A stretch of DNA of 64,000 bases from Scleroderma bovista (taxonomy: Eukaryota; Basidiomycota; Agaricomycetes; Boletales; Sclerodermataceae). Location of the stretch: assembly GCA_037178675.1 (NCBI GenBank), contig JAYMGJ010000406.1, positions 1 through 64,000 of the forward strand. The letters are read 5' to 3'. The notes under the pieces were generated by a model that worked only from the letters and a program-made list of their open reading frames with translations, searched no databases and was not told the origin of the DNA. The position numbers were made by a program, and so were the translations under genes. Positions 1 through 23,821 of this stretch are shown here, in pieces (positions within the stretch are counted from its first letter, which is position 1; every line of letters begins with the position of its first letter).

Positions 1-3000
1 GAATCCATCACTTGTCATACTTGCTGACATTCCCAGCGGGGAGAGCATAGCATCGAGAATGAATTGAAATTCAGCAGCAATCCAGGCTTTATTTTTCACG
101 ATTCCTGTGGATTTGAAGCTGGGAGTGTGGAAGAATTCAACAAGATGAAAGACTTTGTGCTGGACCGGGCGACCACATCACACTTGAAGAAACGGATCCA
201 TGCTATTTGGCAAGTGCATTTTGTGTCTTTCAAAGGAGGTTGTTGCTCATAAGAATTACCATGTGATACAGGTATTGCATCCCTGTAACTGATTACAACA
301 GACCTATTGGTGGCTGCAGAGATAAAATTCTTTCAGGAATGTGATACAAAGAAAGGTATGTAAATTCATGACTGCATGCTTTCTAGTTCATCATATTTTT
401 AGTTCCTGTCCTTGTATTGTTGACAAAGCTTGACACCCTGGAGTCTAATGCTTACAATGAACTCAAGAATGAAGGATGTTCAAAGGAGGAAGCAAGGAAA
501 TTGAGAAGTGAACGTGCACAACAAATGTTGGAGAGGCTACAAGTTCAAATAGAAAGTGAACTAGGGATGACTCAATTCCCTCCTAAAAACTATGTTCAGT
601 TGACTAGTAAGTATAGCCTGCTGAAAATTGCAGTCATAGTCCTAATGTTTGCAGGCATGCATGAAGATAATGCTGACTGTGGACCTCTTTTGGAAAAGAC
701 TGCAACTGCACTGGATGAAGTGGCCTTGCAACTGCTTCTGGTAACTACCCAGCAAACTAATCTGCACCTTTGCATTGAATGGGCTGTAAAAATGTAGGTG
801 ATGATATTAAACTGGAAATTTATGGAAAACTAATGTTGAATAGTGCAATATGGGAGGTTATCTGTGCACAGGATTGTTCAGTGGCATTAGAGACATTGCT
901 TGTTCTGTGGTTTCCACATACAAAGGTATGTTGCATTGCATGGTGATGAAAATACATCAGAACATTGATATTACCAAAAGTTTGTGAGTACATAAATGCC
1001 TTTTAAATTGATGCCTTGCATAATTCTGATTATTCCTCATAGTTGGTGAGCTGTTTTATCTGCAGTCATCTAGAATGTCTCTGAAAATCCTCTTCTGCAT
1101 TGGTGGCTCTGCTCACTTGATAGCTTGTGAGTAACTTATTTACACCTACAAATGCATATCTTTGATTGGTTATCATCTTTTCTTGACAGTTTGTAAGTGT
1201 TGTGTCTCAAGTGCACCTGAAAGTCCTATGACTTGCTTGATAGGATGTGAGTCACTTGTGACAAACGCACTTGCAATGTCTGATGGTTCTGTTCTGCTGG
1301 TGATCTGTACTAAACAGGAGGTGAGCATTAGTGCTCAAGTGGTCCTGCAAGCCCTGATGATGGTTCTCTTGTCTGGATTTCTTGATAGGATGTGAGTTGC
1401 CTCATCACAGGTGCACTTGCACATCATGGCTTTAGTAACCTTATTCCATTGGGCATTGGGTTGGCTTTACAGTATGTGAGTTGCTTGATTTCAAATCATC
1501 TTACAATGTATCTGTCTTGCTGATGATCTCATTGATTTGGTAGCCTGTAAGCTGCTGATCACAAGCACATCTAGATTGTCTAACAATGATAATTGTACAA
1601 ACATATCAGAATGTGGGGTATTTGATTGCAAGTGTGCATCTGAAATATCTCTAACCATCATCTTTGTGGATAACTATACCCACTTGATAGGTTGTAAGTG
1701 ATGTCAAATTCACATGTAATGCCCTGCTGATGACCCCACTTCTTTTCTAGGTTGTGAGTTACTTGCTTCAAGTGCACTCAAAAGTCCTGATAAATATGTC
1801 CTGCTGTAATTTTTATGCACTTAGTATGCAGTGAGTCACTCCACCTTGTTTCAAGTGTGCACCTACAATCTTTCTGATGTCCTTGATGCTCTTGTTTACC
1901 TGACAGAATGTAAGTTGCTTGATCTCATATGACACAATATTTAATTCTGACATTCCTTTATTGCTGATTGGACTGACTTAATAGCATGTGAGTTACCACA
2001 TGGATGCCTGCCATAATACTGTCAATTCTCCCTTACTGGTTATCCTATTCTGTTAACAGGAGGTGAGTTACTTCATCTCACATTTATATGATCAATATTT
2101 ACTGATGTTTTTCAGGATGTAGGTTGCTTGTTGTCAAATAAATCCACAATTTTGCTTACAGCTATATCCCATGGCTGGTGGTTTTAACAGATTGTGAGAC
2201 ACATGATCATAAATGCATACCTGTGTTTATTCTGTCACCTTATGATTCTGCTCACTTGTCAGCTTGTGAGTTGGTTGACCTTCAGAGTGCCAAAATATCT
2301 CTAACAATCTCAATCATTTGGTGGTTTGCCTTAACTGATAGTGGGTGAGATTCTTCCATGAAATGTACTTGAAATGCATATGACAATGCCATACTATTGC
2401 TGTTACTTCTAGAATGTGAGTTGCCTGACCTCAAGTATAGTTTCTAACATTTCAATTCTGCTGATGGCCTGGCTCAACAGAAGGTATGTTTGTTTTCAAG
2501 TACATGTGCTAAATATAATTGGGCCCTCATAATGCTGTTCTATTGATGACACAGCTTGTATGTTGTTTTATCTCAAGTCTGATTAAATTCCCTCTGAAAG
2601 TTCTTCTCTGCTGTTAATCTGGCTTCTGAGATAGTATGTGAGTCTTGATGTCAACTATAAATATGCACAACATCTCACTCTGACATCTTACTTCAATGGC
2701 AAGGGGGTGAGTTAGCTTATCTGAAGCACAAATGCCATGCTTCTAACACTTCCATCTTGTTGATGGTTTATACTCACTTGAAAGATTGTGAGTTACCATT
2801 GCTACTAGTACCATACAATGATAAGGTCCTATTATACACATGACAGTGTGTGAGTTTATGAACTTTCAATGTAACTGAATTATCCCTAATATGTGATTTG
2901 GGTAGGATGTGAGTTGTTCAGTCTCATTTGACAATTTGATTCTGATTCTGATCTGGCTTTGGTAGCATGTGAGTTGTTCAGTCTCATTTGACAATTTGAT

Positions 3001-5488
3001 TCTGATTCTGATCTGGCTTTGGTAGCATGTGAGTTGTTCAGTCTCATTTGACAATTTGATTCTGATTCTGATCTGGCTTTGGTAGGATGTGAGTTGTTCA
3101 GTCTCATTTGACAATTTGATTCTGATTCTGATCTGGCTTTGGTAGGCTGTGAGTTGTTCAGTCTCATTTGACAATTTGATTCTGATTCTGATCTGGCTTT
3201 GGTAGGCTGTGAGTTGTTCAGTCTCATTTGACAATTTGATTCTGATTCTGATCTGGCTTTGGTAGGCTGTGAGTTGTTCAGTCTCATTTGACAATTTGAT
3301 TCTGATTCTGATCTGGCTTTGGTAGGCTGTGAGTTGTTCAGTCTCATTTGACAATTTGATTCTGATTCTGATCTGGCTTTGGTAGGCTGTGAGTTGTTCA
3401 GTCTCATTTGACAATTTGATTCTGATTCTGATCTGGCTTTGGTAGGCTGTGAGTTGTTCAGTCTCATTTGACAATTTGATTCTGATTCTGATCTGGCTTT
3501 GGTAGTATGTGAGTTGTTCAGTCTCATTTGACAATTTGATTCTGATTCTGATCTGGCTTTGGTAGTATGTGAGTTGTTCAGTCTCATTTGACAATTTGAT
3601 TCTGATTCTGATCTGGCTTTGGTAGGCTGTGAGTTGTTCAGTCTCATTTGACAATTTGATTCTGATTCTGATCTGGCTTTGGTAGTATGTGAGTTGTTCA
3701 GTCTCATTTGACAATTTGATTCTGATTCTGATCTGGCTTTGGTAGGCTGTGAGTTGTTCAGTCTCATTTGACAATTTGATTCTGATTCTGATCTGGCTTT
3801 GGTAGGCTGTGAGTTGTTCAGTCTCATTTGACAATTTGATTCTGATTCTGATCTGGCTTTGGTAGCATGTGAGTTGTTCAGTCTCATTTGACAATTTGAT
3901 TCTGATTCTGATCTGGCTTTGGTAGCATGTGAGTTGTTCAGTCTCATTTGACAATTTGATTCTGATTCTGATCTGGCTTTGGTAGCATGTGAGTTGTTCA
4001 GTCTCATTTGACAATTTGATTCTGATTCTGATCTGGCTTTGGTAGGCTGTGAGTTGTTCAGTCTCATTTGACAATTTGATTCTGATTCTGATCTGGCTTT
4101 GGTAGGCTGTGAGTTGTTCAGTCTCATTTGACAATTTGATTCTGATTCTGATCACATTTTAATAGAATGTATGTTATTCAGTCTCCATAATGTTTTTTTG
4201 ACACTTCAATTCTTATCATGGTTTTCCTCACATAATAGCAAGTAAGTTTTTTTCTTCATTCAAAATACCATTTGCTTGTGGCCACTGTATTTCATTGATG
4301 GTAACTATCATGATAGGATGTGAGTTACTTTTTTGAAGCACAGATGCAATTGGGTCAATAATATTTCTTGCTATTCTCTCAATTGACAGCTTGTGAGTTG
4401 CATGATCTGCAGTTTGTATATGTATTGCTGATATTTCTCAAAAATCATTTCTGCTTGGTGATATAAATGGCACAATAGAAAGTAAGTTACCCTTGAGTGC
4501 ATTGCTATTTCCCTGACATACTAATGATGTACCACATCAGCATGTGAGTCAATTGATCTTAACTGTATCTATTTTTGATGATCTCATCTGGCATTCTGTT
4601 CATTTGATAGGCAGTGAGTCACATGCTCTGAGCTGTCATTACTAGTAGGGTACCTCATAACCTTTTGCATTTCAGTTGGTAGGTTGTGTCATTGTACATG
4701 CTCACTCCAAATGCCCATTTCCTTATACCAGGATGTATGTATACCATCTGTTTACAATTCTGGTAATATCTTAAATGTTATGGATATCACTTCCTATAAT
4801 AGCAAGTGAGTCATCAGCCACTATCATTATGTGACATCTTTCTAATGTATTCACATTTCTAGAATGTATGCAATTATTCAGATGTTATTGTTTCCATTCC
4901 AGCTTACCCACCAATTATGTAGCTGGTGTGTCTTCAACCCCTTTCTTAAGGAATGTCAATGTTTTCAACCCAAGACCATGTTCTTTATGATCCATCTAGT
5001 TGGTAAATTCAAGACCTACATCAATTATATCAATACTAAATTTTATATTAGGAGGTCAAGCCTGAACATTCACAATGGAAGAATGTGGAAGCAATTCTGA
5101 AGCAATTATTTTTCTCAGAAAACTGCTGCTTCAGGATCAGCCACTCATATTATCACACAATATGCAATTGGTAATGTCCATTTACTATTTTGATTTTCCT
5201 TTTCTTATTATTACATGTTGTGCAGCAATATTAATTGTACTTGAATATTCCTTCTTTCTGCAGCATGATTCAATGCATCTGAAAGATGCTTTGGAATCTG
5301 CAGTGACAGAGTACAATAAGTCTGGAGCCCAAATGACTGTCAAAACAGCCATTTCAGCCACTATTCCCAGTGCAAAACCACCCCAATCAGCCAAAGATGA
5401 CTTCTGCAAGAAGATCATCAACATCACCCTGAACCACTTGATGTGTAAGGGACACTGCTTTCAATTCAACCAGAACTCTCATTACTAA
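1..5488 (+). CDS. G-domain GTPase gene, 3' part, with a microexon/intron array
   Basis: The gene is cut by the left edge; the P-loop is outside the window. It matches the large Agaricomycete family of AIG1/Era-like G-domain proteins (family knowledge). The G3 motif reads HDSCGFEAG (from about 96) and the G4 motif reads LLTKLD (about 418-435). A conserved block follows (HEDNADC, LLLVTTQQ), then WFPH at about 911. Introns: 210-271 (GC donor), 356-402, 607-654, then the array 926-5051 (separate entry). The last exons begin at 5052, with an intron at about 5170-5224 just before a hydrophobic, probably membrane-spanning segment (AILIVLEYSFF). The C-terminus ends at the stop at 5486-5488. Three single-base frame breaks are visible, near 318 (extra G), 790-795 (A run one short) and 5105-5115 (T run one long). 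Two of the three are in homopolymer runs, so they may be assembly errors or real decay. Local composition is AT-rich, unlike the rest of the window. Confidence 0.75.
926..5051 (+). repeat. array of ~62 intron-like units separated by single-codon microexons
   Basis: Between a phase-0 donor (AAG|GTATGT at 926) and a phase-0 acceptor (TAG ending at 5051), I count 61 places where an acceptor AG is followed by exactly 3 nt and then a donor-like GT, mostly GTGAGT, GTAAGT or GTATGT. One exception, at 1825, has 6 nt. Triplet starts run 981, 1043, 1124, 1190, 1244, 1318, 1389 and so on to 4803, 4863, 4923, 5000. Spacing between them is 54-89 nt, and exactly 60 nt in the central block. Units carry CTGAT/CTGAC-like branch sites and usually end in TTGATAG or similar. 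The diverged units still share a loose consensus, so they descend from one amplified unit. None of the 62 in-frame triplets is a stop. Either this is one 4.1 kb intron full of decoy sites, or a run of single-codon exons or recursive splice points. The spacing rule is seen directly; the function is inference. Confidence 0.8.
2906..4168 (+). repeat. homogenised 60 bp tandem block inside the array
   Basis: Twenty-one triplets sit 60 bp apart from 2906 to 4106, with the next at 4166. The 57 nt intron-like parts that follow each of the first 20 triplets look identical to each other. They begin GTGAGTTGTTCAG, contain TTCTGATTCTGATCTGG and end TTTGGTAG. The 21st begins the same way and diverges at its 3' end. 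All variation falls on the 3 nt between acceptor and donor. In order these are GAT, CAT, CAT, GAT, GCT six times, TAT twice, GCT, TAT, GCT twice, CAT three times and GCT twice, with AAT at 4166. Because 60 is divisible by 3, two reverse-strand frames stay open across the block; these are not believed to be genes. Confidence 0.95.
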
Positions 5489-6019: not shown

Positions 6020-6925
6020 AACGACGCGTATTGCAGTCGTGGGTAGCAACGGCCGTGGCACGGTTGGCAAAAGCACCGTCGCAAATGCATTTTCTCTAAG
6101 ATGACCGGTTCATTTGTATGCCCCACAGATCTCGCAGTTTCTCTCGCCATGCAGGAGCCCACGTCGCCTGGACAGCGTATATGTATGGGCGTGATATACT
6201 TGTGCCGTCTGTGCCAACACTGATGGGTCTTCGACACACCGACGAGCCGCCGTTGACATCTGGTATGCCCCTACTTCTCCCCCCCCCCACATCCTGACCA
6301 ACTGAGCCCTTGTTTTCAGCGAGTGCGATCATTCCCATCACCAGCCATGCGAACCGGCCATGTCCATAGGCTACCTCCTTCCCAAGTCTGCGCCAGGTCC
6401 GTCACGCCAAGGTGTATAGCAGTTACTATTTGAAGTGGACTGGCGCGATGGTGGAGAGGGTTCTGGACTAGATGTGCGCCAATTCACAAGGTTGGTATGC
6501 TTTAATGCAATGTGTTTTCCAATAGGCAGTGCGGTGATTTCCTCTACGTCTCAGGATGTTGCTTTGACGGACGTCCACTGGGGTAATCCATGTTTTGCAA
6601 AGTCGCCGTACCGGTGCGTGATGTACACGTTGCTGTATTTCCTGCATCTTAGTACCGCATTGAACGATTACAGGAATGATCCTGAATCAGTCGTATTTTG
6701 TCTGCCCCTCTTGTGCCACCCCCCACTACTACCTCTTCGGATCGCCGACAGCCTTTTGCTCCATTGCTGCCTCGCTCGATGTTCTCGTCCTGGGTGAATT
6801 GCCCCTCGTGAAGGGTGTCAGTCTGGGCGGAGATAATAGCATGCCCTATGTGCTTACCTCAAGCAAGGAGCAGGGGGGGAGGAGGATAATGCAGGTAGGC
6901 GAGACATCATGCAAGAGATAACAGG
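6020..6925 (+). pseudogene. decayed NUBPL/Ind1-type (Mrp/NBP35) P-loop ATPase
   Basis: Family members load Fe-S clusters into mitochondrial complex I (established knowledge). Fragments in different frames follow the family order. A P-loop-like GTVGKSTVANA lies near 6050. A block ending VPTLMGLRHTDEPPLTS (to about 6260) is followed by a plausible intron to about 6319. Then come IIPITSH and, in another frame, MSIGYLLP; VDWRDGG with GLDV near 6470; VALTDVHWG near 6560; and a C-terminal block with SYFVCPSC, LFGSPTAF, LGELPLVKGVSLGGD and a final frame to about 6920. The reading frame changes several times, and expected segments, including the middle ATPase core, are degraded. A relic rather than a working gene is the simplest reading. 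An intact copy elsewhere is expected but cannot be seen here. Confidence 0.7.
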
Positions 6926-7557: not shown

Positions 7558-10500
7558 TCACTGTGGTTGTGAGGCAGGTGACTGTACCCAGGGCGAAACA
7601 GAGTCGTCGAGCATGATTCCGCGTATCCTCTCATACACTGCCTCTGGGAATCGTCTGTGGACATAGGCATGAGTAAGACCGTATATGTCCTTCTAGCGGA
7701 CTGCCACGTACCTTTCTTGTAGCCGGTGTAGGAGAGCGACGGCGAGATCGCGATTCCCATTACCAAGTTCAGCACGGAACATGGCTTCCCACGTCGATGG
7801 CTGCAACGAAAAGAGCCATCAGAACGGAGCAACTCATTTGTTTAGTCGAAACCGACGTACCTCTCTGTACGAGGGCCCAGGCGATAACAGGGGAGAGCTG
7901 GATGCGGAATTGTGAGGGACGTGGTTGTTGGGAGCAGCAACGCCGCTAGGCGGATCCTCTAAGCTCTCAAATACCCTCCGTGCCTCCTCGATATCGCCTG
8001 CAGCGGCGTAGCCCTTGATCAACAGGTTCGCAATGTACGCCGTCATGTGCACGCCCGTCGCTTGCAGCCTTGCGAGGTAGCTAGGAACGAGATCCATACG
8101 CTTGTGCGTGACGAGTACATTGATAAGTGATTCGTAAGTGACGGCGTCTGGGAGGGTGCTACGGCGGGAGGAAGGACGCGACGAGATGGATTCGAAGATG
8201 TTAATGGCTTTGTCGAGGTCTTTGCAGACGCAGCCGTATGCGTTGATGAGCGCTGACCAGTGGGTACCTTGAAGCGCAACTTCAGTAGACGACTCGATCT
8301 GCTTGAATGTTTTTTCCATAGCCTCTACGTTGATCGGCTCTATGGTTCCATATGCATCTATCAAGAGCTGAAAGGGGTGCGTCAGAAGCATGCCACCGTA
8401 GTTCATTAAGGACCGTCACCTTGTAGGTATGCGCAGAAGGCTTGATTCCCGCCTTCAACATCAAATCATAATAATGCAACACGCGCTCCCTATCCGGCTT
8501 GGTGTGCGTGTACATCTGCATCATAGTATTGTACGGCGGGATCCGAGGCCGGAAATTGTGCTGGCTCGCCATCTCCTCGAAAAGTTGCTCGGCGGTCTGG
8601 TAATCACCTACACGGGCACACGCCGCAATGACCGCACCATACGTGATCGACGAAGGACGCAACTTGTCGTCTTTCATCTGCCGGAACAGGACCAGCGCAT
8701 GATCTGCCTTGCGTGCTTTGGCAAGCTTGGAGATGATGGTGTTATAGAGGTACACATTTGGCTTTACCCCGAGCGACAATGAGTCAGTGAAGAGGTCCAG
8801 TGCATTGGATGTGTCGTCAGTGGTGTCACGCATACACTCAATAAGAGATCCGAATGCGTCAGGAGAGGGGACGCCGCCAGCTGCGGTGATGCGGTCGCGG
8901 TGCATATAAGCGGCCTCCATATCACCGGCGTGAGCATGCGCGACGATCATCTGGTCCTCGATCTGGAACCACGCCTCGGTCTGCCAGGCGGGGTTGGCGA
9001 AGAAATAAGGCGAAAAGAGGACTTGTTGGGCAATGGAATAGACCGATTCGAGCGCAGGGATGTCGTGTGTGCGGCCAAGGCCGTTGATGAGGCGGCCGAG
9101 GACAATGGGGTGAGGGTACCTTGTGGAATCCGCCGATAAAGCTGATTGGAGGCGCGCGTAGCCATCATGCACAGTGAGCGAACGATGCGTTGGAGACCAT
9201 TCGTCGACGTGGCGACTGAGTTCGGAGTCGATGATGACCTGTGCAGGGGGAGGGGACACGGCGACAGACGGTGGGGTGGGGGTGGGGGTGGGAGAACGAG
9301 GTTTAGAGCGATGAAGGTGAGGTAGGTCTCCGAACAAAAGGTCGACTATTTCACCATCGTCAGTTGCGTAGAGCGCCTCTGCGACAGCTGTGAGTACTCC
9401 ATCCGACACACGGGTCACCTGGCTAATGGCGTCAGCGGTATTTATTGCTTGGAGTAACCCTGCGAGGGACTGGTATGCACACCCCTGGAAAAGGTCGTCG
9501 TGCGAGAGTTGAGTGGGAAGCACGAGAGCGCAAGACAACAGGATCTCGTAGTCGTTCGTCGTCAGTGACCGTTTTGCCTCCTTCGGAGCAACGATGTAGG
9601 CATGAAGGTGATACGGAGCCATCAAAGGCGTCGGGACCACACCCTCGGATACAGTGTACCGCATTAGTTCTACAGTCTCCAAGAGAGGTTCCTGAGACGA
9701 GGAAACAACCGCCTCAAGAGCGAGCGGGACGACATTGGTGAGGAGGTGTGAGGAAATCCTGGCCGCGGATTTATCATCCTCCGTCAACGATTTTCCGATC
9801 ACCGCCGACTCCTCGGCCACCAATGTCTTCGCTAGCTTCCACGCCTGCTCAGCCATTCCAAAACGCACGAAGTGATGGTATAAGCGGGTCAGATTATTCG
9901 AGCACTCTGCGATGTGAAGGATATAGGGCAAGATGTCCTTGTTAGGTGAGATTTGTTGCGCAACAAACGCAAGTGAGGAGCGAGCGAGTTCCTCGTCGTC
10001 CAGCAAAACTGCTTGCTCCAGGAAACGCACGTTGGCATCAAGTACTATTGACCGTAGGGACTTGGAGTCCAACTTGTCTTTGGGGGCACATTCAACCAGA
10101 GTTTCGAATAACTTGTTGAGATCGTGGATGCGAGATTTGTCCGAGGTAGATGCTTGTGAGAGTGCGTCAAGCATCACATTCCAAGTTGTTTGGTCTGGTC
10201 GCGTCGGTTCAGGAGTAGAAACGAATGAGTCATGGGCCGCGGTAGGCTGTAGAAGCAGGCGATTGAACCAAGAGAGCGCAGTGGCAATGTCTGGCTCGGG
10301 TGGCGATCCGGATGCGGTGTTTGGGGTTGGATTGCAGAAGCCGTTGATGATGGTCGTGAATGTCGACGATGCAGGACTTGGAATGACAGTCTTTTCCGCT
10401 GCAGGAATTAATGGGTGAGCTATAAATTCGAAGCACGGGGAATTAAATACCTTGGGTATCAGTGCTTTTGGCGTCCATCATGGTCTCGAGGAGACGCAGA

Positions 10501-11730
10501 GCCCCAGCGGGCTGTCCAGCCCTGAAATAGGCTTCCATCATCCTGTTCCATACCCTTACCGCCGGCCCCGTCTCTAAGTGGCCAATTTGGCCCCTAGCAC
10601 ATAGACTGTTGAACTCGGCGAATACTTCTTTGGCCCCATCAAGGTCGCTGGCGTTGACATAAGTGCTGAGAAGGTAATAAAATACCAACGTGGTAGGGTA
10701 GAATGACTTCCCCTGCGAGCGTGACGAACGGGCGCGGGCTTCGAGGAACGAATACATACGAATGGCACCGTCGATGGAAGAGTGGTGCGAACATGAGCGA
10801 AGAAGGGTATGATACACAGCAGTCGGGAAACAGGAAGCGAGGGAATATCCAGGCGGGGAGGAACCCTGCTGGACGTGTGTCGTGCATGCAACGTCGAATA
10901 TGGACATAGCTCTGCGGAAGTTGTCCTCTGCTAGAAGTTCTTCCCTCTGTTTCGCATCCGCTGCCTCCAACGCTGCATCGTCTGGATTACGTGCACGCAG
11001 TCTCCGTCGGCGTGTGCGTCCCTCGAGAGCACGCAAACTCTTCTGTACCTGGTGGTCACGATCTGCAAGTTGTGTGATTATCTGCGCTATTCGTGGGACA
11101 TCTTTTGCAGCCAGTGCTTCTTCGACGGTAGCCTCGAAGGGTTGATTTGACGAATGATCCTCGGTAGCAGGGGGCCCTAGTTTCCCTCGGTGCTGCTCCT
11201 GTTCTGCTGCCGGAGCAAATGTATGCCGTGCACGGAGATGTGTCTGGACTGTCTGCAGGACGCCCGCACCAGTTTCCTGTTCATGATCGCGACGGCCTGG
11301 TGGAAGAGAAAACGAATGACGGCGAGCGAGGGAGCGTGAAGACCGCGAGGGTGGTTGGTGCGACTTGATGGATGATGATGGGGTGTCTTCTCTGTCGTCG
11401 TCCTTGGCGAGTTCCTGGCTAGTGGACGTGTTCGCTTGTGTAATTGCGCGACCCGCGCCCTGTATGCATGTTAGCGTACAAAAGATATGGACAGAGAGCA
11501 CCGACCGTGTATCCGGTGTAGAATTTACTACCAGCATTGAATTTTGCTCCGCCAGGACCGGCTCCATGACCAGCGCTGCCCCATGACGAGCCTGCGCCTG
11601 CACCCCATGAAGCGGTCGAGCCAGATGACTGGTATTGAAGGACGCTACGAAGTGTGCCCGACTGGTTCTGAACCAGTGCGACTGCACGTGAGGTGTGCAG
11701 AAAGAGATGGTTGGCGACTTTGGGAAGCAT
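7558..11730 (-). CDS. large mitochondrial-type pentatricopeptide repeat protein
   Basis: Exons 11506-11730, 10451-11459, 8420-10398, 7861-8367, 7712-7800 and 7558-7654 join in frame to about 1301 aa. The start at 11730 (MLPKVANHLFLHTSRAV) gives an Arg/Ser-rich, acid-free N-terminus typical of mitochondrial import. PPR-like helical pairs are visible: the block with VWNRMMEAYFRAGQPAGALRL near the end of exon 2; VYLYNTIISKLAKARKADHALVLF with ITYGAVIAACARVGDYQTAEQLF in exon 3; and HWSALINAYGCVCKDLDKAINIF in exon 4. The last two exons carry a conserved tail with TWEAMFRAELGNGNRD and FPEAVYERI. Fungal proteins of this size and layout act in mitochondrial mRNA stability or translation (Pet309/Cya5-like). 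That assignment is inference. The first donor is GTCGGT, weaker than usual. Confidence 0.85.
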
Positions 11731-12290
11731 TGTCGTCGTTGTCGTCGTCGAGGCTGTCGTCCACGACGGGCTCGGAGGTAAATTTGTCGGCGGGGAAAAA
11801 TAGAATCGGGTTATTATAAATAATTAATTCGGGAGTATTCGGGCCGTGTTCTCCCAGATGCCGACCAGAGACGCAGCCTTGCTGTGTGAGTGAGTCAGCT
11901 CAGGGGAAGCGAGTTCACCCGAACGTACTCGAAGTTCGAATTCAAGCGGACCCCTCAGAGCAAGCTCTAATTGAGCCACGGGCTTGTGTAGACGTTGTGC
12001 TAATGTCTATTGGCTGGTTATTTGATTCGGTCTGTTACAGGCCTGTTTGTTGATTCGAAAGAACCTATGACTCACTGGCATCTGACGACCTGCACAGCAG
12101 CCTTACTTAAATACCGGTCAAGTGATAGTAGTCATCGCATGTACTACTGAACTTGGCAAGTGAAGCCGGTAGCATGACCTATCTGTCCACAGCATTCCAT
12201 GTTGATATGAGGACTAGTAACTAGTCTCTATGAAGACCTCTATACATGCACACTGTTTTCAGGCGGTTCAACCCTGCTCCTGGAGTCACT
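11731..12290. other. spacer sharing sequence with the downstream duplication
   Basis: No gene recognised. Segments near 11980-12060 and 12120-12260 recur, diverged, near 14965-15050 and 15225-15385, and the first recurs again near 17565-17610. They mark the outer parts of a tandem duplication that carries the two F-box-type genes. Confidence 0.6.
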
Positions 12291-14683: not shown

Positions 14684-15411
14684 AGGCTGCTACTTTGAGC
14701 CTCGGCCTGCACTGGGTTCGCCGCATGCAGCCACACGCAGTACGTGCACTGGGCTGCCATGTCCTTACTTTCACGTAGGGGGACAAATAAACTCGTATAG
14801 ATCTGCTCCTTCTCGCAGGCTACCCTGCAAGTGCTTACTCATTTCTGGGACCCGTTGGACAGCGCAATAGTCCAATAAACCACATGGATCTAGTACTCTG
14901 GATTGTGCAGTGCAGACAAATGGCTCAGCTCATCTTACCATCTCTTCAGATCATAGAATGGAGCAACGGGCTTGCGTAGACGTCGTGCGTTTCTGCATTT
15001 GATTTGGTCTAACAGTTACAGGCGTGTTCCAGGTCGATTCGAAAATAAATCAGGAAATATCACTAGCCTATCTGGCGTCACGGCCTGTGCAGCAGCCTTA
15101 ACCTAGAGTAACATATCTGCCACTACGTTACAGTAAGCATTATCTTCTTCCAAGTACAACCTCGGATCCATATGACCCCGGTGAGATCGATGGTACGTTC
15201 AAACTCCCAACACTTTTGCCCGCCACAGATAAATGACCATCGCATGTAATTAAAGTACTCGTGAACTCGACAAGTGGAGCCGGTAGCATGATCCATCTGT
15301 CCACAGTATTCCGTGTCGATTCATCTCCATGAGCTATCACCATTAGGTATCTATGAAGACCTCTGTATCTATACATGTATGCTTCGCTTGTCCCGTCTCA
15401 TTTTCGGCGGT
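14684..15411. other. spacer between the tandem F-box-type genes
   Basis: No gene. Short phrases such as TACCCTGCAAGTG recur at about 14575 and 14824, with a weaker copy near 17452. Together with the 14965-15385 block that matches 11980-12260, this indicates repeated local duplication. Confidence 0.55.
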
Positions 15412-17325
15412 TCAGCCCCGCTCCAGGAGTCGCTTGATGCCTCTACCCCCACCACGATGCTTGGAATGTATGGTCACATTGCCATGTAGGCAAATATCGC
15501 AGGCACATATTCTGACTGATCGTGGAGTCAGCAATGGGGAAATGGCACAGATAGTGAATTTGCCTACCTGGACCATCACAATGTGATCCTCAGTGATCAT
15601 GGTACTTTCCCAACCATTGTTATTGGGTGTTAGCGGAATAGATGCTTCACGTCCTGGCAAAGACGTGACCACATCCTTATCGAACGGGCCGCGTCTTCTT
15701 CTGATTTTCGTCGCCATTGACATGGCTTTCCAGGGTAGATGAGGACAACTGGCAGTGTTCACGTCCTTTCTTGATGCGTAAGGATTAAAATCGAATAGGC
15801 GCGCGAACGTCCCGCCATCCGGACTATAAATGAATTTCATACCATGGGAATGGCATGCCCAAATATCTGACGGGTTTAACTTGAGCATGCGTGACCCTGC
15901 GGGTCCCCAGGACTCCCATTCCAGATACTTTTGTGAGCTACCGGCGATAGAGGAAACTTGATTGAGTATGGTTGAACGTGGAACCAAAAGAACGACGGTC
16001 TCGACGTCTAAACCTGTGGCGTACTTGAATATCACCGTGAATAAGACATCCGTGGACGAGTGGGCAAACGGAACTGCAGGAATGTCGAGGACGGCCGAAG
16101 CTGTTAAAAGTGCCGTGGTGATGAATACATCATTCACATTACAACTTGCTCGAAGTCTGGGGTATCGAAATTCGCATAGGTATTCAACATCTCCTGCAGA
16201 AGACACAGAATTTCCAGGTGGCACTGCTTGAAGAATCCTGAGGGAAACTTGCTCGTCATCATCTACGAACGACACTAGGACCAGCTCATCCGATATGAAA
16301 GTGAACGAGGTAAACTCGGGAAGTTCAATGAACTGGCCCAAACTGAAGTGAGTTTGACATTCCACGAAGTGAGTCATAATTACCATTGTTTGATTACCAT
16401 TTCTCCAGTCCCAGATAGCGAAAGCTGTCATTGTATGCGAAGCCCAAATATCACCAAAAAAGATGCCCACGTGTGGCCCACAGACACCTATCAAAACGTA
16501 GGATTCAAATTGTTCGTCGAAAAACGTCGGTGTAATCCGGGAACACGTCGCCCTGGGATGCACCATACCGGTGGTAAACGAACGTAAGTGAATATCACAC
16601 CGCCTTGCATGCGTCCTGCATTATTAGTGTCATTGGGGTTTCAAGGAAGTAAAGACAGATATCTCACGTATCATCAAAGAGCTCGATGGCGACAAGTAGA
16701 TCCTGGGTCACATCAATCGTGAAGTTGAAAATAGGAATTTCGGTCAACGCAACCCATCTGCGCTCCGGAATGCCCTTGATACTACACGGCATTTGGACAC
16801 AAGATATTCCGCCATTGGGCCTAGCTTGTACCAAGATACCACTAGCAAGATCCCATGCTTGACCATTGTCTATTACTAGACCATCTTCCATGGGTATCTG
16901 GTTGCGGGTTGGAAATTGTAGGTTGTTCCATGCGTCAGTGTGTCTTCGTATCGCTTCCAAACGGGATGGCAAGTCCCAATCACAATGCTTGACGTCGAAC
17001 ATCTGCGCAGAGAATAAAGACACTTTGTACAACAAAGCAGAGCTTTCTTGTATAATAGATTGAAACTGCTTGCAGACCTAAAATAGATGTTAGATGTTAG
17101 ATAACTGACCACGGTCGGGGACGATCGAAGGTTACCTGCATGCATCTCAACAAAGACGGGACGTCCAACGCCTCCAAAATCAAGATTGTCAACTCGGTCG
17201 GAAAAGGGAACGATGTCATGGAGGCTTAAGTAGTATGGGTCCAAGGATCGGATATGGACAAGGAACGACCATCCTCCTTGAAGTCTTTGGTCGTTCAAGT
17301 CATTGTTTGGTTGTTTTTGACTCAC
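15412..17325 (-). CDS. F-box-type/beta-propeller-like protein, tandem copy B
   Basis: Exons lie at 15412-16615, 16668-17077 and from 17136 to about 17325. The frame is open throughout, unlike copy A. The second exon opens with the VCKQFQSIIQESSALLYKV block that in this lineage follows the F-box helix. The long last exon holds short repeated beta-rich segments (CDIHLRSF, GPHVGIFFGD, WDWRNG, LVPRSTILNQVSS) ending in an Arg/Lys/Gly-rich tail. Such proteins usually serve as substrate-binding parts of SCF ubiquitin ligases (family knowledge). No canonical F-box and no in-frame ATG were found at the 5' end. A further upstream exon or a lost start is therefore possible, and the ubiquitin-ligase role is inference. 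Confidence 0.6.
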
Positions 17326-17685
17326 GTACTAGCCGCATGGCGCAAGCATGGCCGCTACTTACAGTGAGCCTGCACTGGGGTTCGCCGCATACAGCACGCT
17401 GTCCTTTTTCGCGTAGGGGGGAAAAATAACCTCCCTCGTTCATATCGGCTGCCCTGCAACTTGCAGTTGCAAGTGTATACTGGGAGTCTGGGGCTCACGC
17501 AATATTAGCCAATAAACCACATCCAGTGCAAACCTCTCATGGCCCAGATCTTTTCAGATAGCAACGGGCTTGTGTTTCTGCATTTGATTCGGTGTTCCAG
17601 GTCGAGTCGAAACATCTCTGAGATGATAAGTTTCCCACGCATCACAGTATATTAGTGGGTCACTCGAAATAGGCATAGCCAAGTG
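17326..17685. other. spacer with a third partial copy of the duplicated flank
   Basis: The ACGGGCTTGTGT...TTTGATTCGGTG phrase near 17565-17610 is a third, shortened version of sequence at about 11980 and 14969. No gene is visible before the TSC10 start. Confidence 0.6.
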
Positions 17686-19027
17686 ATGATCTCCCTCGAA
17701 CACATATCCGCGGTCAACATCTTCTTCGCTCTTCTATTGCTATCATACTACATGCTTTTTGGAAAGAAAAGGTGGAACCCCGAGGGCAAGGTAAGAATGT
17801 CGCGCCTGTCTAATGTCACGTCATTCAAGGACACGCACAGCATGTGTACATCACGGGTGGCAGTCAAGGTCTTGGTCTCGCGCTCGCAAAAGACCTGGCC
17901 AAGAAAGGAGCGAGCATCTCGATTGTAGCGCGTACACAGAGCAAGCTCGAAGCTGCATTGAAAGAACTCGAGGTGCGGAGGTCAACAATTCAACCGGGCT
18001 ATGGTTATTAACATTACGCCTAGTCCCTCCGCCAGTCACCATCTCAGTTTTTTGACTCATTTTCATTCTCCCTCGATACTGCCGATGCGTCTGCTGCTGC
18101 CTTTGCCGCCGTGTGTGCCGCACACAATGGTCAAGCGCCTGATGCTGTGTTTGCGTGTGCTGGCGCTTCCAGGCCAATGTATCTCGTGGATATGACGGCG
18201 GAGGACTTCGAGCGAGGAATGAAAGATGGGTTCTGGGTCCAGGCATGGACCGCATTTGTGGGTTCATCTAATTATTTTCACCTCCCCACCTGACTTCATC
18301 TACTTCGTGCCGCAGGCTGCTGCAAAGGAAATGGCGAGACAGGGAAAGAAAGGGAAAATCATACTTGTCTCGTCGACTCTCGGATTCATGTCCTTTGTTG
18401 GTTACGCTTCATACTCCCCCGCAAAGCACGCCCTTCGCGGTGCGTTTCTCATTCGTATCCGACCTTCGTCTTACTTACACCGCACATATATCCAGGTCTC
18501 GCCGATTCCCTTCGCTCGGAACTCTTATTGTACGGCATCGATGTCCACGTATTTTTCCCTCCTACAATGTATACCCCTGGATTCGATGAGGAAAATAAGA
18601 CAAAACCTGCCATCACACGTAAGATCGAGTCGACAGACGAAGGTCTGACCCCAGAACAGGCCGCTGCTGGGCTTCTTGCAGGTAAAGTCTTCCGGCTATG
18701 AAGCATCTCCATTTCTGAAGCAAACGGTCCAAAACAGGCGTGCAACGCGGGGACCATCACATTACCGCTGATCTTATAACGAGCTTGTTCTGCGCCTCGA
18801 CCAGAGGGTCCGCACCGAGGCGCAATGTTTTCATCGATACCGTTCTGGACTTTATCGCCTTGGTGAGTCCGTTATTTGTGCTTTACACTTCTATTACGAA
18901 TGTCACCTTCTGCACGCAGATCGGCGTTCCCATCTGGAGAATCTCGGTTGACAAACAAGTTATCAGCCATCGGCAAGAACACAGGGCATACTTGGAAAGC
19001 AAGGGGTTCTTTACTACGTCGAAGTGA
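17686..19027 (+). CDS. TSC10: 3-ketodihydrosphingosine reductase (TSC10/KDSR)
   Basis: This short-chain dehydrogenase reduces 3-ketodihydrosphingosine to dihydrosphingosine with NADPH on the ER membrane, an early step of sphingolipid synthesis (family knowledge). Seven exons (17686-17790, 17841-17972, 18048-18257, 18316-18439, 18496-18681, 18738-18862, 18920-19027) give 329 aa. The protein starts with an N-terminal hydrophobic segment ([14 protein letters not shown]). The Rossmann motif TGGSQGLG follows, then ACAGASRP and VSSTLGF. The active-site YSPAK lies at about 18414. A C-terminal hydrophobic stretch comes before WRISVDKQ. The start ATG at 17686 sits directly before the membrane segment. 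Six introns for 990 coding bases is typical of the region. Confidence 0.9.
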
Positions 19028-19237
19028 TTCCATTACATTCTCTACTTAACCTAATTGCACATCTATTGAGCGAGAGTCTTCGGGCTGTAAAACGGGGCAC
19101 ATATAGATATAGAACAAGTGTCCAGATCCACATTTGCTGGCCAGGTAACAGCGCCACGACCATGCAAAGAAAAATCCGTACTCTAATTATATTACACTGT
19201 GGCTGTGCATCATTTGCCTGCTCTCAATCCACCCACT

Positions 19238-21420
19238 ATGAACTATGGCCGAAACGCATCTAGGCTACTAAGAACCATACATTCTGCTGCAGTCACCGTA
19301 GCACCAGTTCCAGTTCCCGCACCCATACCAACACCCACGCGAGGTCAAGCCCACCACATCCCCTATCCACCGCACGCGTTTAGCTTGGACCTGCACGAAA
19401 AAGTTGAATATTTGCGAAATGTCAGTCTACAGGCCACCGAAGTCGAGGTCAGTCAGCCGCAGGTGACGCATTCTGACGCAGAACTTCATGCGTTCTACGC
19501 CGATGTCCTAAATGTTGATCCCGAAGAACCATGCACGGATCGTTCTATCAAAGGTATACGGCCATTAAGCCCACCAGAATTGTCACTTATGCTTTTACAA
19601 GATTCACCGACGGACGACCACATTGACCGCCACATCAAAGCGCATCTCACCAGCACACTCAAGGTCGACCCCTCTGATCCTACCGTCCATCACGCCTTTC
19701 CGACTTCCGCACTGGAGGCATTACACGCCTACGAAGCAGCTGGGTCCGTCGTCCCTATCAAGTCCTACACGCGAGTCATCTCCGCACTCCTCCACGTCCG
19801 TACGAGCCCCTCGTCAGATCCTCGCCTCGGTGCCTCCGCAGCCTACTCCCAAGCCTGGGACCTCTTCTCGCACATGCGGTACGTCGCGCATCCTACACCC
19901 GACGCCCATCTCTACGCAGTCATGATCCGCGCATGCGCGTCCGCCTCCAGCTCACGCGCCGCAGAACCGGAGCGTGCACTCGACCTGTGGACAGAGATGC
20001 AAGAGAACCGGATCGAGCCTACGAGAGCAGCGTACGAGGCCATTGTTTTGGTGTTTGGACGGGCGGGGAGGGAATGGCTCGGAGAGAGTGTGCGGTTTGC
20101 GAAGGAGATGAGGGCGAGGTATTGCACTTCGCCGTCGTCAGTAGCGAGTGAGAGGAGGATATGGTGTGCCCTGCTGGAGGGATGTAAGCGCGTCGGCGAT
20201 CTGCCCAGGGCACGGTGGATTCTCGCGGAGGCGTTGCGCTTGGACCCGGACTCCGGGAAGGAGGGTCCGCAGGTCGGAATGGAGACAGCGGAAGGTACTG
20301 TGGATGCGAAAATGATGTGTCATCTTTTCCACACCTATACGTCTTATCAACCGCCGTTCAGCAGGGGTGCGACGAGGCTCGTAGATGATCCCTCCGCTGC
20401 GCATGGCGAGTCTTCCTCTAGCTCACCAGTGGAAACACATGACGGCCACACTGACACACCAACATTTTCGCGCCTTCCCCCTCAGACGGCGTCGGATGTC
20501 CTTGCGGAGGTTGAGTTCCTGTTCAAACGGATTGCACGGGATGCACAATCCCCACTGCAGCAACGAGAAGATTCTGACGACCCCCTCTTGGGTAAATTCG
20601 CGAATGTGCAGCTAACACCCCTTCTGTTAAACGCGTACATGTCCGTGTTCTACAAACATGCGAGCATTGAGCGTTCTCGGGAAATTTTTACCTCCCTTTT
20701 TGGACCGTCACGGATCGCAACCCTCCCAGGTAACACGCATACATTTCTAGAAGCGCTCGAGAGGTGCGCATTGGCGTCCAAGGACGAGAGGCTCATTGCT
20801 GGGCAATGGGCACAAGAATTGTGGGTACAGTGGGAATCTGTGGAGGCGAAGGGAGTCGCGACTGGACACGAGGATGTGGGGATATTCGCAAGGCTGATCG
20901 AGAGGGCGCATACAGCTATGAGAAGAATTTTAGTATTGTACGTGATTCCTACTTTCCTGCCTTCCTCGTCTCTCATCAGAATTACAGGACTGGTGATATC
21001 GACGGCGCGCTTGGTTTATTGCGCAAATTTGTGAACCGCTACCCTCCCAGTACATTGATCCAACCCCGTTTCTCCTCACTTGCAAGTTCGACATCGGACA
21101 CGTCCTCCGTTCCAGCTCCGGCACCCCCCACGATCACCTTATTTGCGAAACCGCCGATCCTATCTACCCGTGTGACACTAACTAACCCCAAGCTCTCTGA
21201 TTCAGCCACGGCCCATGCGAAGCCCTTAGTTCGACTGTCATCAGCCGTGGGACCTCGGGACGACCGTGTTCCGCCTATCATCGCCTTTTCTGATATTGAA
21301 CTTCTGCATCATCGGCTTGTCGCGCTGAAGCGCATCAAGGACGTGGGGTATCTGAAGTGGGTGTGTGAGGCGTATAGGGGGACGCTGAGGAGGAGGAGGG
21401 AGGCGGTGCTTCATGGGTGA
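19238..21420 (+). CDS. PPR-like mitochondrial protein
   Basis: Two exons (19238-20937 and 20988-21420) give 710 aa. The ATG at 19238 yields MNYGRNASRLLRTIHSAAV, a basic, amphipathic, import-like N-terminus. Weak PPR-type helical pairs are visible: SYTRVISALLHVR, LYAVMIRACASASSSRAAEPERALDLW, IEPTRAAYEAIVLVFGRAG and IWCALLEGCKRVGDLPRARWIL. The C-terminus ends in a basic helix (YRGTLRRRREAVLHG). The exact mitochondrial role is unknown. This is the second PPR protein within 14 kb but it is not an evident duplicate of the first, since size and sequence differ. Confidence 0.8.
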
Positions 21421-21618: not shown

Positions 21619-23821
21619 ATGTTGAGCGCCATTGCAGCACGCAAGGCTGCTTCAAAAGACACCCCGAGGCCATCGCCGCCGCCTCTTCCAACACGAGAGT
21701 GGAGTCCATCGCGGCCTAACGACTCTGAGGACCCACAGCAAACAGGCAACGCCGAATGTCCCGCCAGTGCGATATCCAACTTTACGCCTGTCATTGGCCA
21801 GAACACCTTTGTTTTAACTGCCGGCGATCTCTCTAGTCTCGGGTTGCAGGGCGAGCATGCGGTCCTTCTGACTGTAAACACAGGTGAATCGTTGGCCCTT
21901 GTCGGCGTGTACCTCGTCGCCGTTCTCCGAGGCAGCATATCCTTGTGCGGCGTCACACTCCGGCCTTCCTTGACGCGACATCGCGTATTCGCACCTCGTT
22001 CATCACCCATCCCGGTGATTTCTTGGGTTCCTCTGCAAACTGACTCGTCGACCCATATACCACTGCCATCCGACGTTCACGCGACTCCAGATACCTCCAT
22101 CATTTTGATCCAACACGAGAATACTGGCGTGCACGGCCTGGGTCGCGCATGCAGAATATTCGACCATGTCTTTGAACCGCCACGAGACGCCACAACAGTC
22201 GACATTGGAGTGCCCGAAGTACACCTCGTACGTGATTGACAAAATTTGTGACTAGTCTCACTAACTTTGCTTGCTCCTGAGATATCGCACAGCAGCAAAG
22301 CGGTCTTACCTTTTATTCTTCCACCGTCATGGGATGCGGCACTCGCTCAAGTCGATCCTTTGCCTTGTTCCGATACTGACACCGACTTGGCGTCGGTCCC
22401 AATATGCATCGTCAAAGGACCGAAGAAATCTGGCAAAAGTACCTTTGCGCGGACGCTGGTAAACCGTCTGTTAAACCGGTCCGCTAAGAACTCGTTTTGT
22501 CAATCCGTTGATTGTCCTGATCACTTTTATTCCCAGCTATCGACGTGTCGCGTTCCTCGAATGTGACGTTGGCCAGTCCGAATTCACACCGGGCGGGATG
22601 GTTGCGCTCAACGTCGTGGAGAATTATATTTTTGGTAAAGTCGTTCATTTTGCTATCGGTGGGTCTTCGTGACTGGTTTATTTAGGCCCTCCCTTCACTC
22701 ATCCGACGTTACCGTACCGTGCGCATTTCGTTGGGTCCACCACCCCTCGTACAAGCCCATCGTTCTATATCTCTTCCATTCAATCACTCGTGGAGACATA
22801 CAAACTCGAGGTACACATCCCCGTACCACCAAACTCACCTGTATCCGACGACGACCGAATAGAGGACGCCATCCCACTTGTGGTGAACACGATGGGCTGG
22901 ACCAAAGGCCTCGGGCTGGACCTCAACGCTCGTATCGAAGAGTTATTGGAGGCCTCGCACGTCTTCGAGATGGAGGGCTCGGAGGAACGGGGCTGGCCTG
23001 CCCCGTTGCCCAGTGCGCAAAACGATACATTCTTTCCCTTCGGGATTGCCAAAAACATTGTACACACCATGCTCGAAGCAATATCACCCGAGGCGACAAA
23101 TGCACACGCATACACGGCAGCCGACCATCGAAGCCTCAACGTCCTATCTTACTTCTATACTGTCTTCCCGCCACCTCCTTCCGACCAACCTTCTACGTCC
23201 CCTTACTTTTTGACATCTTCCCCGCTTATTCCCCTTGGACAAATCACAGCGGAACGTTGGGACGTTACGCTTCCACTCTGCGCCCGGTACCCATACGAAG
23301 TTGCCTGCGACAAAGCATTCGACCGCGTATACCTCGTCGGAGCGGGACATGAGGACGTCGTCCCCTCCGAATTGATCCATGTCCTCAACGGCGCGGTGGT
23401 TGGCCTTGTCGCGTACGATCCTGGGGCCGATGAAACAGAGCACGAGCTAAGCGAGGAGGCCGCCTCAGGACCCGCAGCGGCAGGACTACCCTACACACCT
23501 GGTCAAGCCGCTCCGCGACCGTCCTCGTCGAGTTGTCTCGGCCTTGGCCTCATACGCGGCGTCTCGTCTCTCTCGTCTTCAGTGTACCTACACATTTTAA
23601 CCCCTCTCCCTCCGTCGATCCTGGCACATGCACGCGTGCTGGTCAAGGGCGAACTCGAGCTCCCTATTTGGGGTATGCTCGACTTCAGGGAAGGCGAGGA
23701 GGGCGGTGTGGCTGGTGTCGAGAGGGGTCAGGTGCCTTACCTGCAGTGGGGCAAAGGAGAGGGACTGGGCAGTGAGCGAAGGCGGGTCAGGAGAAACCTC
23801 ATGCGGAAAGGACAAATGTAA
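21619..23821 (+). CDS. GRC3: polynucleotide 5'-hydroxyl kinase GRC3/NOL9
   Basis: Grc3 phosphorylates RNA 5'-OH ends during pre-rRNA ITS2 processing, together with Las1, in the nucleolus (family knowledge). Exons 21619-22227, 22282-22478, 22537-22634 and 22686-23821 join to 679 aa. The Walker A motif GPKKSGKST (about 22417) is followed by FLECDVGQSEFTPGG, the CLP1/GRC3 hallmark, and later by VVNTMGWTKGLG. A long N-terminal low-complexity region precedes a beta-rich domain. The start at 21619 (MLSAIAARKAA) is preferred over an in-frame ATG at 21511 because the 36 upstream residues are Cys-rich and unlike the family. The second intron uses a weak GTCCGC donor. Confidence 0.9.

Follow-up and report, generated by a model that had tools for sequence, protein, structure and literature searches.

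Tandem arrays of putative single-codon exons in a GTPase gene family of the fungus Scleroderma bovista

A GTPase gene with a chain of three-nucleotide units

The window analysed here is a stretch of 64,000 nucleotides from a Scleroderma bovista contig (locus C406; other C numbers denote contigs or loci of the same 51.8 Mb genome), and it opens inside a GTPase gene that extends upstream of position 1 (Table 1). The donor of the first exon listed was inferred from homologous proteins to be of the GC type (GCAAGT). Once joined by hand, the G domain matched only Arf and MMR_HSR1, both below curated cut-offs, and a search of the PDB with it returned no match at E <= 0.1. Purifying selection was evident in one G-domain exon, with dN/dS of 0.08-0.48 across the six pairs compared. 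Among the best 120 of 1,205 matches to annotated proteins, the closest came from Scleroderma (top identity 83%), followed mostly by Pisolithus and Rhizopogon, and no annotated protein contained the post-array C-terminus at E <= 0.001.

Compared with the near-identical copy C208, the window gene contains two 1-nt indels: an additional G near 308, in the second exon listed (a frameshift or an assembly error), and an additional T near 5108, in the post-array exon. It may accordingly be a pseudogene, or the assembly may be wrong at these places. A sequence-only reading of this DNA had placed the array in phase 0 between two coding exons of one GTPase gene. Upstream this holds, the preceding exon ending in phase 0 at 925; downstream it holds for three of four copies, in which the exon at 5052 is open, and for the window apart from the extra T. 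We retained the exon at 5052 because it is open and conserved in C208, C69, and C448, and for the same reason rejected a reading of 5055-5120 as one further intron. In C448, the C-terminal exon contains a stop.

Elsewhere in the window, a C-homopolymer at 6278 differs in length (14 nt) between C406 and C208, possibly reflecting assembly trouble in homopolymers. Downstream of the GTPase gene, open frames at 8282-11810 and 19187-21034 match pentatricopeptide-repeat proteins, and another at 22673-23821 is CLP1/NOL9-like.

Table 1. Predicted parts of the GTPase gene in the window
Feature	Position	Strand	Basis
G-domain exon, G3-like DSCGFE	37..209	+	homology to Scleroderma/Pisolithus GTPases
GTPase exon (YCIPVTDYNRP...)	272..355	+	sequence reading, comparison with C208
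GTPase exon with G4-like TKLD (VPVLVLLTKLD...)	403..606	+	
GTPase exon (MHEDNADCGPLL...CIEWAVKN)	655..793	+	
Last ordinary pre-array exon (DCSVALETLLVLWFPHTK), phase 0 end	872..925	+	
Single-codon exon array, 62 introns, 60 three-nt exons, one six-nt exon (1825-1830)	926..5051	+	
5' diverged arm, spelling FLLFDEDYPNVV-YA-NHEDILWNKLYGICD; its units align one to one with those of paralog C69	926..2908	+	
Central homogenised part, 21 units (57-nt intron + codon), codons H/D/A/Y vary	2909..4165	+	
3' diverged arm, final codons NQDLKHALDQNLL	4166..5051	+	
Post-array coding exon (EVKPEHSQWKNVEAILKQL...), phase 0 open in C208, C69, C448	5052..5170	+	
C-terminal exon (ILIVLEYSFFLQHDSMHLKDALESAVTEYNKSG...), resembling post-array exons of other paralogs	5226..5488	+	

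Within the array, direct reading of the sequence gave 60 AG-NNN-GT junctions and a single AG-6 nt-GT junction, whose exon is TATGCA. From the first donor GT (926) to the last acceptor AG (5050-5051), the putative introns measure 49-86 nt, and their donors are mostly GTGAGT or GTAAGT. With consecutive acceptors and donors enclosing exact 3-nt exons, the segment is, in descriptive terms, a putative spliceosomal single-codon exon array. We parsed it by dynamic programming with generic fungal splice signals, hand-set weights, and introns of 45-100 nt, leaving exon length free from 0 to 40 because the answer must not be built into the method. This free parse recovered 61 introns and an exon length of 3 in 58 of 60 cases, with a score of 143, passing over one weak junction (AAT, then the donor GTGGGG at 1613). 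By comparison, 100 dinucleotide shuffles of the array scored 8.7 at most and yielded no more than one three-nucleotide exon. Taken alone, the diverged arms (926-2905 and 4166-5051) each scored above their own 100 shuffles, and the remaining window, on both strands, scored no higher than 9.4. When plus-strand chains were collected by exon size from 0 to 20 nt, size 3 gave a chain 40 long and the other sizes gave chains of 1-2. Direct reading, free parse, and shuffles together confirmed the 60 single-codon units and one 6-nt unit originally described.

The centre of the array adds something that the sequence-only reading had not reported. The first 20 of its 21 introns are identical, and their triplets alone differ (GAT/CAT/GCT/TAT); the 21st departs from the others at six positions. 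This part is a near-perfect 60-bp tandem repeat arranged head to tail, in other words a minisatellite, a nature that accounts for the behaviour of the DNA without accounting for the coding signature described below. Two reverse-strand open reading frames of 421 and 430 amino acids cross the centre, an effect of the 60-bp period being divisible by 3; we rejected them as genes, since the arms vary in length and the period is not common to the units of C69 either. A reading of the introns as coding was also rejected, as 58 of 61 introns would, if retained, bring in a stop or shift the frame.

Arrays recur across the GTPase family

A genome search with the GTPase exons gave 91 exon matches, which we assigned manually to 47 loci, allele pairs among them. 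All 47 were examined, each over part of its DNA, and an array was called where a chain held at least eight 3-nt exons. Arrays were present in 42 of the 47; the other five (C708, C513, C427, C838, and C472) had none in the DNA examined. Such counts are not independent, given the common descent of units within an array and the allele pairs among the loci. The array is thus a family-wide feature of the S. bovista genome, which also goes beyond the first description; the question raised there, whether relatives would carry the array, was answered on paralogs of the same genome, where it is neither absent nor random.

Between the first and last triplet of the 42 arrays, 1,100 of 1,149 exons are 3 nt long, and the remaining 49 comprise 17 of 6 nt, 12 of 7 nt, and 20 of other lengths. 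Exons of 1, 2, 4, 5, 7, and more nucleotides occur, and including some of them would disrupt the reading frame. Those of 2 and 4 nt lie in C298m, C127m, and C333, although the adjoining introns stay exactly 78 nt, and could be errors or frameshifts. A scan of exon sizes 0-9 over the loci first retrieved found chains of at most 2 for every size other than 3, at each locus listed. The commonest intron length is 78 nt in 36 of the 42 arrays, with a sequence unlike that of the window intron.

A further genome search covered the window's central intron type. A 29-base junction (end of the central intron, any triplet, start of the next intron) had 66 exact matches in the genome—20 in C406, 39 in C208, 6 in C448, and 1 in C69—confined to the four closest GTPase loci. 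The first 30 bases of the 78-nt intron were found in no viral contig. Two structural features were observed at individual loci: in C448, about 3.5 kb of G+C-richer (0.52), low-complexity-looking sequence (14741-18214) splits the first eight array codons from the rest, and in C127, from about 109,000, C127p matches C298p at 99.9% over 1,983 bp, the match stopping at an intron start and giving way to other sequence.

We also searched the genome for three successive units of the AG-NNN-GTRAGT type, obtaining 614 + 603 matches versus 4 + 1 for the reversed pattern. Part of these matches belong to an unrelated satellite (GTAAGTCAGACAGTGTGTCAGACC..., about 61 bp) that fits AG-NNN-GTAAGT and occurs in C19 and C37, and probably also in C39 and C54. 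Because this satellite matches too, we rejected the pattern search by itself as proof of arrays. In 11 satellite units, the triplets are TCA, TTG, CCA, and TGA, with stops in two of the 11; between neighbours, 13 of 30 triplet sites differ versus 30 of 578 body sites, so here, too, the triplet is the more variable part.

The triplets carry a coding signature

Across the 1,100 triplets, positional composition predicts 103.9 stops, versus two called; with each codon counted once per array, the figures are 37.3 and one. Both calls are TGA in C534, one resulting from a lost acceptor and one genuine. Codon usage also sets the arrays apart from the G-domain exons of 14 loci: NNC codons make up 5 of 1,100 array triplets versus 112 of 971 G-domain codons, and CGA accounts for 30 of 82 arginine codons in arrays versus 0 of 56.

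Array endings are shared as well. They are of the QDxNL, QDxAL, or LDQNL type in 18 of the 42 arrays, though introns differ between groups; 19 arrays reach within 100 nt of the end of the examined DNA, and five end otherwise, one of them in QDNHLF. In some paralogs, the QDxNL ending is written with a fused 6-nt exon (AACTTG, AATTTG), and in others with separate AAT and CTG. Beyond the array, C333 and C244 continue in frame 0 with a KDSDVDL(R/T)SGALPLMHPLF-like exon, and these two loci, like C216 and C534, also have a C-terminal exon similar to the one in the window. By these measures of sequence, the triplets look like translated codons. We also inspected 131 annotated proteins (11 plus the best 120 of the 1,205 matches, the latter mostly from Scleroderma, Pisolithus, and Rhizopogon). 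A WFP-type motif is reached by 45, and V[SR] occurs within ten residues in 29 of these, as gene models reading into a GTRAG donor would show; this is suggestive only.

Codons vary on homogenised introns

To see how triplets change when introns do not, we took neighbouring pairs of units with 100% identical introns (n = 173). The codon was the same in 43 and different in 130; all 130 differences were nonsynonymous and none synonymous, and the number of changed bases was one in 32 pairs, two in 47, and three in 51. In a control set of 255 neighbour pairs picked on identity of the 5' intron half only, the 3' half differed at 139 of 9,515 sites (1.5%), and triplet positions 1, 2, and 3 differed in 153, 180, and 134 of the 255 pairs. 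Over all pairs of units in ten homogenised arrays, 4 synonymous differences (CAA/CAG in C217) stood against 2,059 nonsynonymous ones. These arrays use almost one codon per amino acid and have 4-10 residues per array on one intron type.

Near-identical copies of a locus likewise differ in their codon strings. C406 and C208 agree at 898 of 899 and 1196 of 1199 aligned flanking bases, with 2 and 1 gaps; their outer codons are the same, and their central codons differ, numbering 20 versus 39. C127m and C298m, apparently two haplotypes, agree at 572 of 586 and 467 of 480 flanking positions and have 30 of 35 and 35 of 43 introns exactly in common, with different codon strings. The same holds for C333/C244 and C101/C181. 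Near-identical repeats are hard to assemble, so the codon order within arrays may contain mistakes.

Codon and intron variant were significantly linked in C244 (p 0.004) and C769 (p 0.001), and not significantly in C208 (p 0.052), C468 (p 0.62), or C69 (p 0.94, only 6 units). In the diverged arms, aligned bases of codons and introns change at similar rates: in the 5' arm, compared between C406 and C69, 12 of 75 codon bases changed versus 261 of 1,613 intron bases (gaps uncounted), although length was kept in 26 of 26 exons and changed in 20 of 26 introns. The sequence-only proposal that the units are single-codon exons generating sequence diversity is supported by the 3-nt exons at 42 of 47 loci, the rarity of stops, the unusual codon use, the common endings, the phase-0 flanking exons, and the variation of codons between near-identical alleles on homogenised introns. 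Variation in length through exon skipping, also raised there, is a possibility that the frame would allow.

Interpretation and alternative explanations

From these patterns we infer splicing, a recombination mechanism, selection, and function together: very probably, the triplets are real one-codon exons in units shuffled by recombination, with homogenised introns and codons under selection for diversity, forming a hypervariable domain of the GTPase. The repeat unit would be one short spliceosomal intron plus one codon. Introns would be removed one by one through intron definition, in steps that are presumably sequential because each acceptor lies only 3 nt from the next donor, and the joined codons would make up some 20-80 residues linking the GTPase domain to the C-terminal part. 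Between such closely similar units in tandem, unequal crossing-over and gene conversion could duplicate, delete, or swap codons as wholes and leave the reading frame intact. Recombination would act on the introns, which would thereby become homogenised, and identical introns on both sides would let codons be exchanged cleanly. The linkage in C244 and C769, together with repeated blocks, points to copying of whole intron-plus-codon units; the persistence of 4-10 residues on one intron type with almost no synonymous variants would in addition call for selection for diversity, which would maintain the codon differences. In this way, an expanded GTPase family would have gained a hypervariable domain.

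Two alternatives deny the triplets a place in the protein. A non-coding minisatellite within one 4.1-kb intron, with 925 joined to 5052 and the triplets meaningless, would fit the repetitive centre and the AG-NNN-GTRAGT repeats elsewhere in the genome; yet it has only a slim chance, faced with the near absence of stops, the lack of synonymous changes among 130 neighbour differences, the avoidance of NNC, the terminal codons common to arrays, and an exact 3-nt gap that persists where units have diverged and where paralogs have other introns. Much the same evidence bears on a chain of recursive splicing, in which the triplets are splice-site context, removed or transiently used while a long intron is excised stepwise. 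Acceptors and donors 3 nt apart suit this idea, and splicing alone can yield avoidance of C at position -1, but the scarcity of TGA, TAA, and TAG and of synonymous changes, and the QDxNL endings, fused or separate, are left unexplained, and we rate its chance as marginally lower.

The other two concern the origin of codon variation. A dedicated machine that rewrites the triplet and leaves the intron untouched, in the manner of diversity-generating retroelements or somatic hypermutation, draws support from the 51 of 173 pairs in which all three nucleotides changed and no intron base did, and from the 2- and 4-nt exons beside exact 78-nt introns in C298m, C127m, and C333. It is nevertheless doubtful, as the 130 differing neighbour pairs include no synonymous products, homogenised arrays use almost one codon per amino acid, and the codon travels with the intron variant in two of five arrays tested. 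Copying of existing units plus selection explains the triplet variation better, although hypermutation could also supply variation within that scheme. Finally, insertion of mobile introns (introners) between all codons of what was once a continuous exon would leave near-identical introns and different codons within an array; the exact codon spacing, the repetition of blocks of units, and a codon usage unlike that of the G-domain exons (NNC nearly absent, CGA frequent) make this the least probable of the four.

If the arrays are indeed recombining one-codon exons, their most likely role is in non-self (allo)recognition or immunity. Such a role is suggested by the array-less paralog C427, where (10166-12170) the second G-domain exon runs into TPR-like repeats (TPR_12, E 0.0016, below the curated cut-off) that are followed, in a different frame, by a HET domain (PF06985, E 7.9e-13). 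Tens of single-codon exons between recombining introns would allow alleles to differ by arbitrary strings of amino acids at little risk of frameshift. A bolder reading, on which our judgement is evenly divided, is a DNA-encoded repertoire generator in a eukaryote that shuffles single codons at dozens of GTPase loci, the strings acting as self/non-self specificities and the skipping of units perhaps adding isoforms. Were the triplets spliced in, this would be an extreme gene architecture, with up to about 80 consecutive one-codon exons, and a direct test of how the spliceosome handles 3-nt exons; it would represent a new route to diversification of recognition genes, with introns as the homologous scaffold and codons as exchangeable letters, and standard gene finders would overlook the stretch in which a large gene family varies most.

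Comparison with known systems

In a library composed largely of freely accessible journal articles, our literature searches turned up no description of such arrays or of this gene family. Very small exons are known individually: Drosophila homothorax is said to contain a 3-bp micro-exon, and Trichoderma Xlr2 reportedly has a microexon. These resemble the array exons in size, but are apparently single rather than tens in succession with variable codons. Recursive splicing uses zero-length exons, in which an acceptor adjoins a donor and the intron is removed stepwise with no codon retained, whereas in the arrays one codon with a coding signature lies between acceptor and donor. Introners, or introner-like elements, provide genomes with many near-identical introns in dispersed positions; array introns instead follow one another inside a gene, spaced exactly by codons. 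Diversity-generating retroelements diversify a recognition domain at the level of codons, but the changes in the arrays are not confined to adenines.

Among fungal recognition genes, two reports describe Podospora het-d/het-e (HNWD) as carrying 42-residue WD40 repeats with concerted evolution and variable copy number, exchange within and between loci, high internal conservation, and strong diversifying selection on four codons of each repeat (PMC1805685, PMC12222747). The S. bovista arrays are similar in being homogenised tandem repeats with hypervariable codons and an excess of nonsynonymous change. They differ in that the body of the repeat is an intron with a coding content of one codon, where HNWD has a 42-residue coding unit; the NTPase family is also different, and the window gene shows neither coding WD40 repeats, the unit bodies mostly bringing a stop or frameshift if retained, nor a NACHT domain, the G domain matching only Arf and MMR_HSR1 below their cut-offs. 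The likeness to HNWD lies at the level of sequence evolution, and on the side of function it extends only to the HET domain in the array-less C427.
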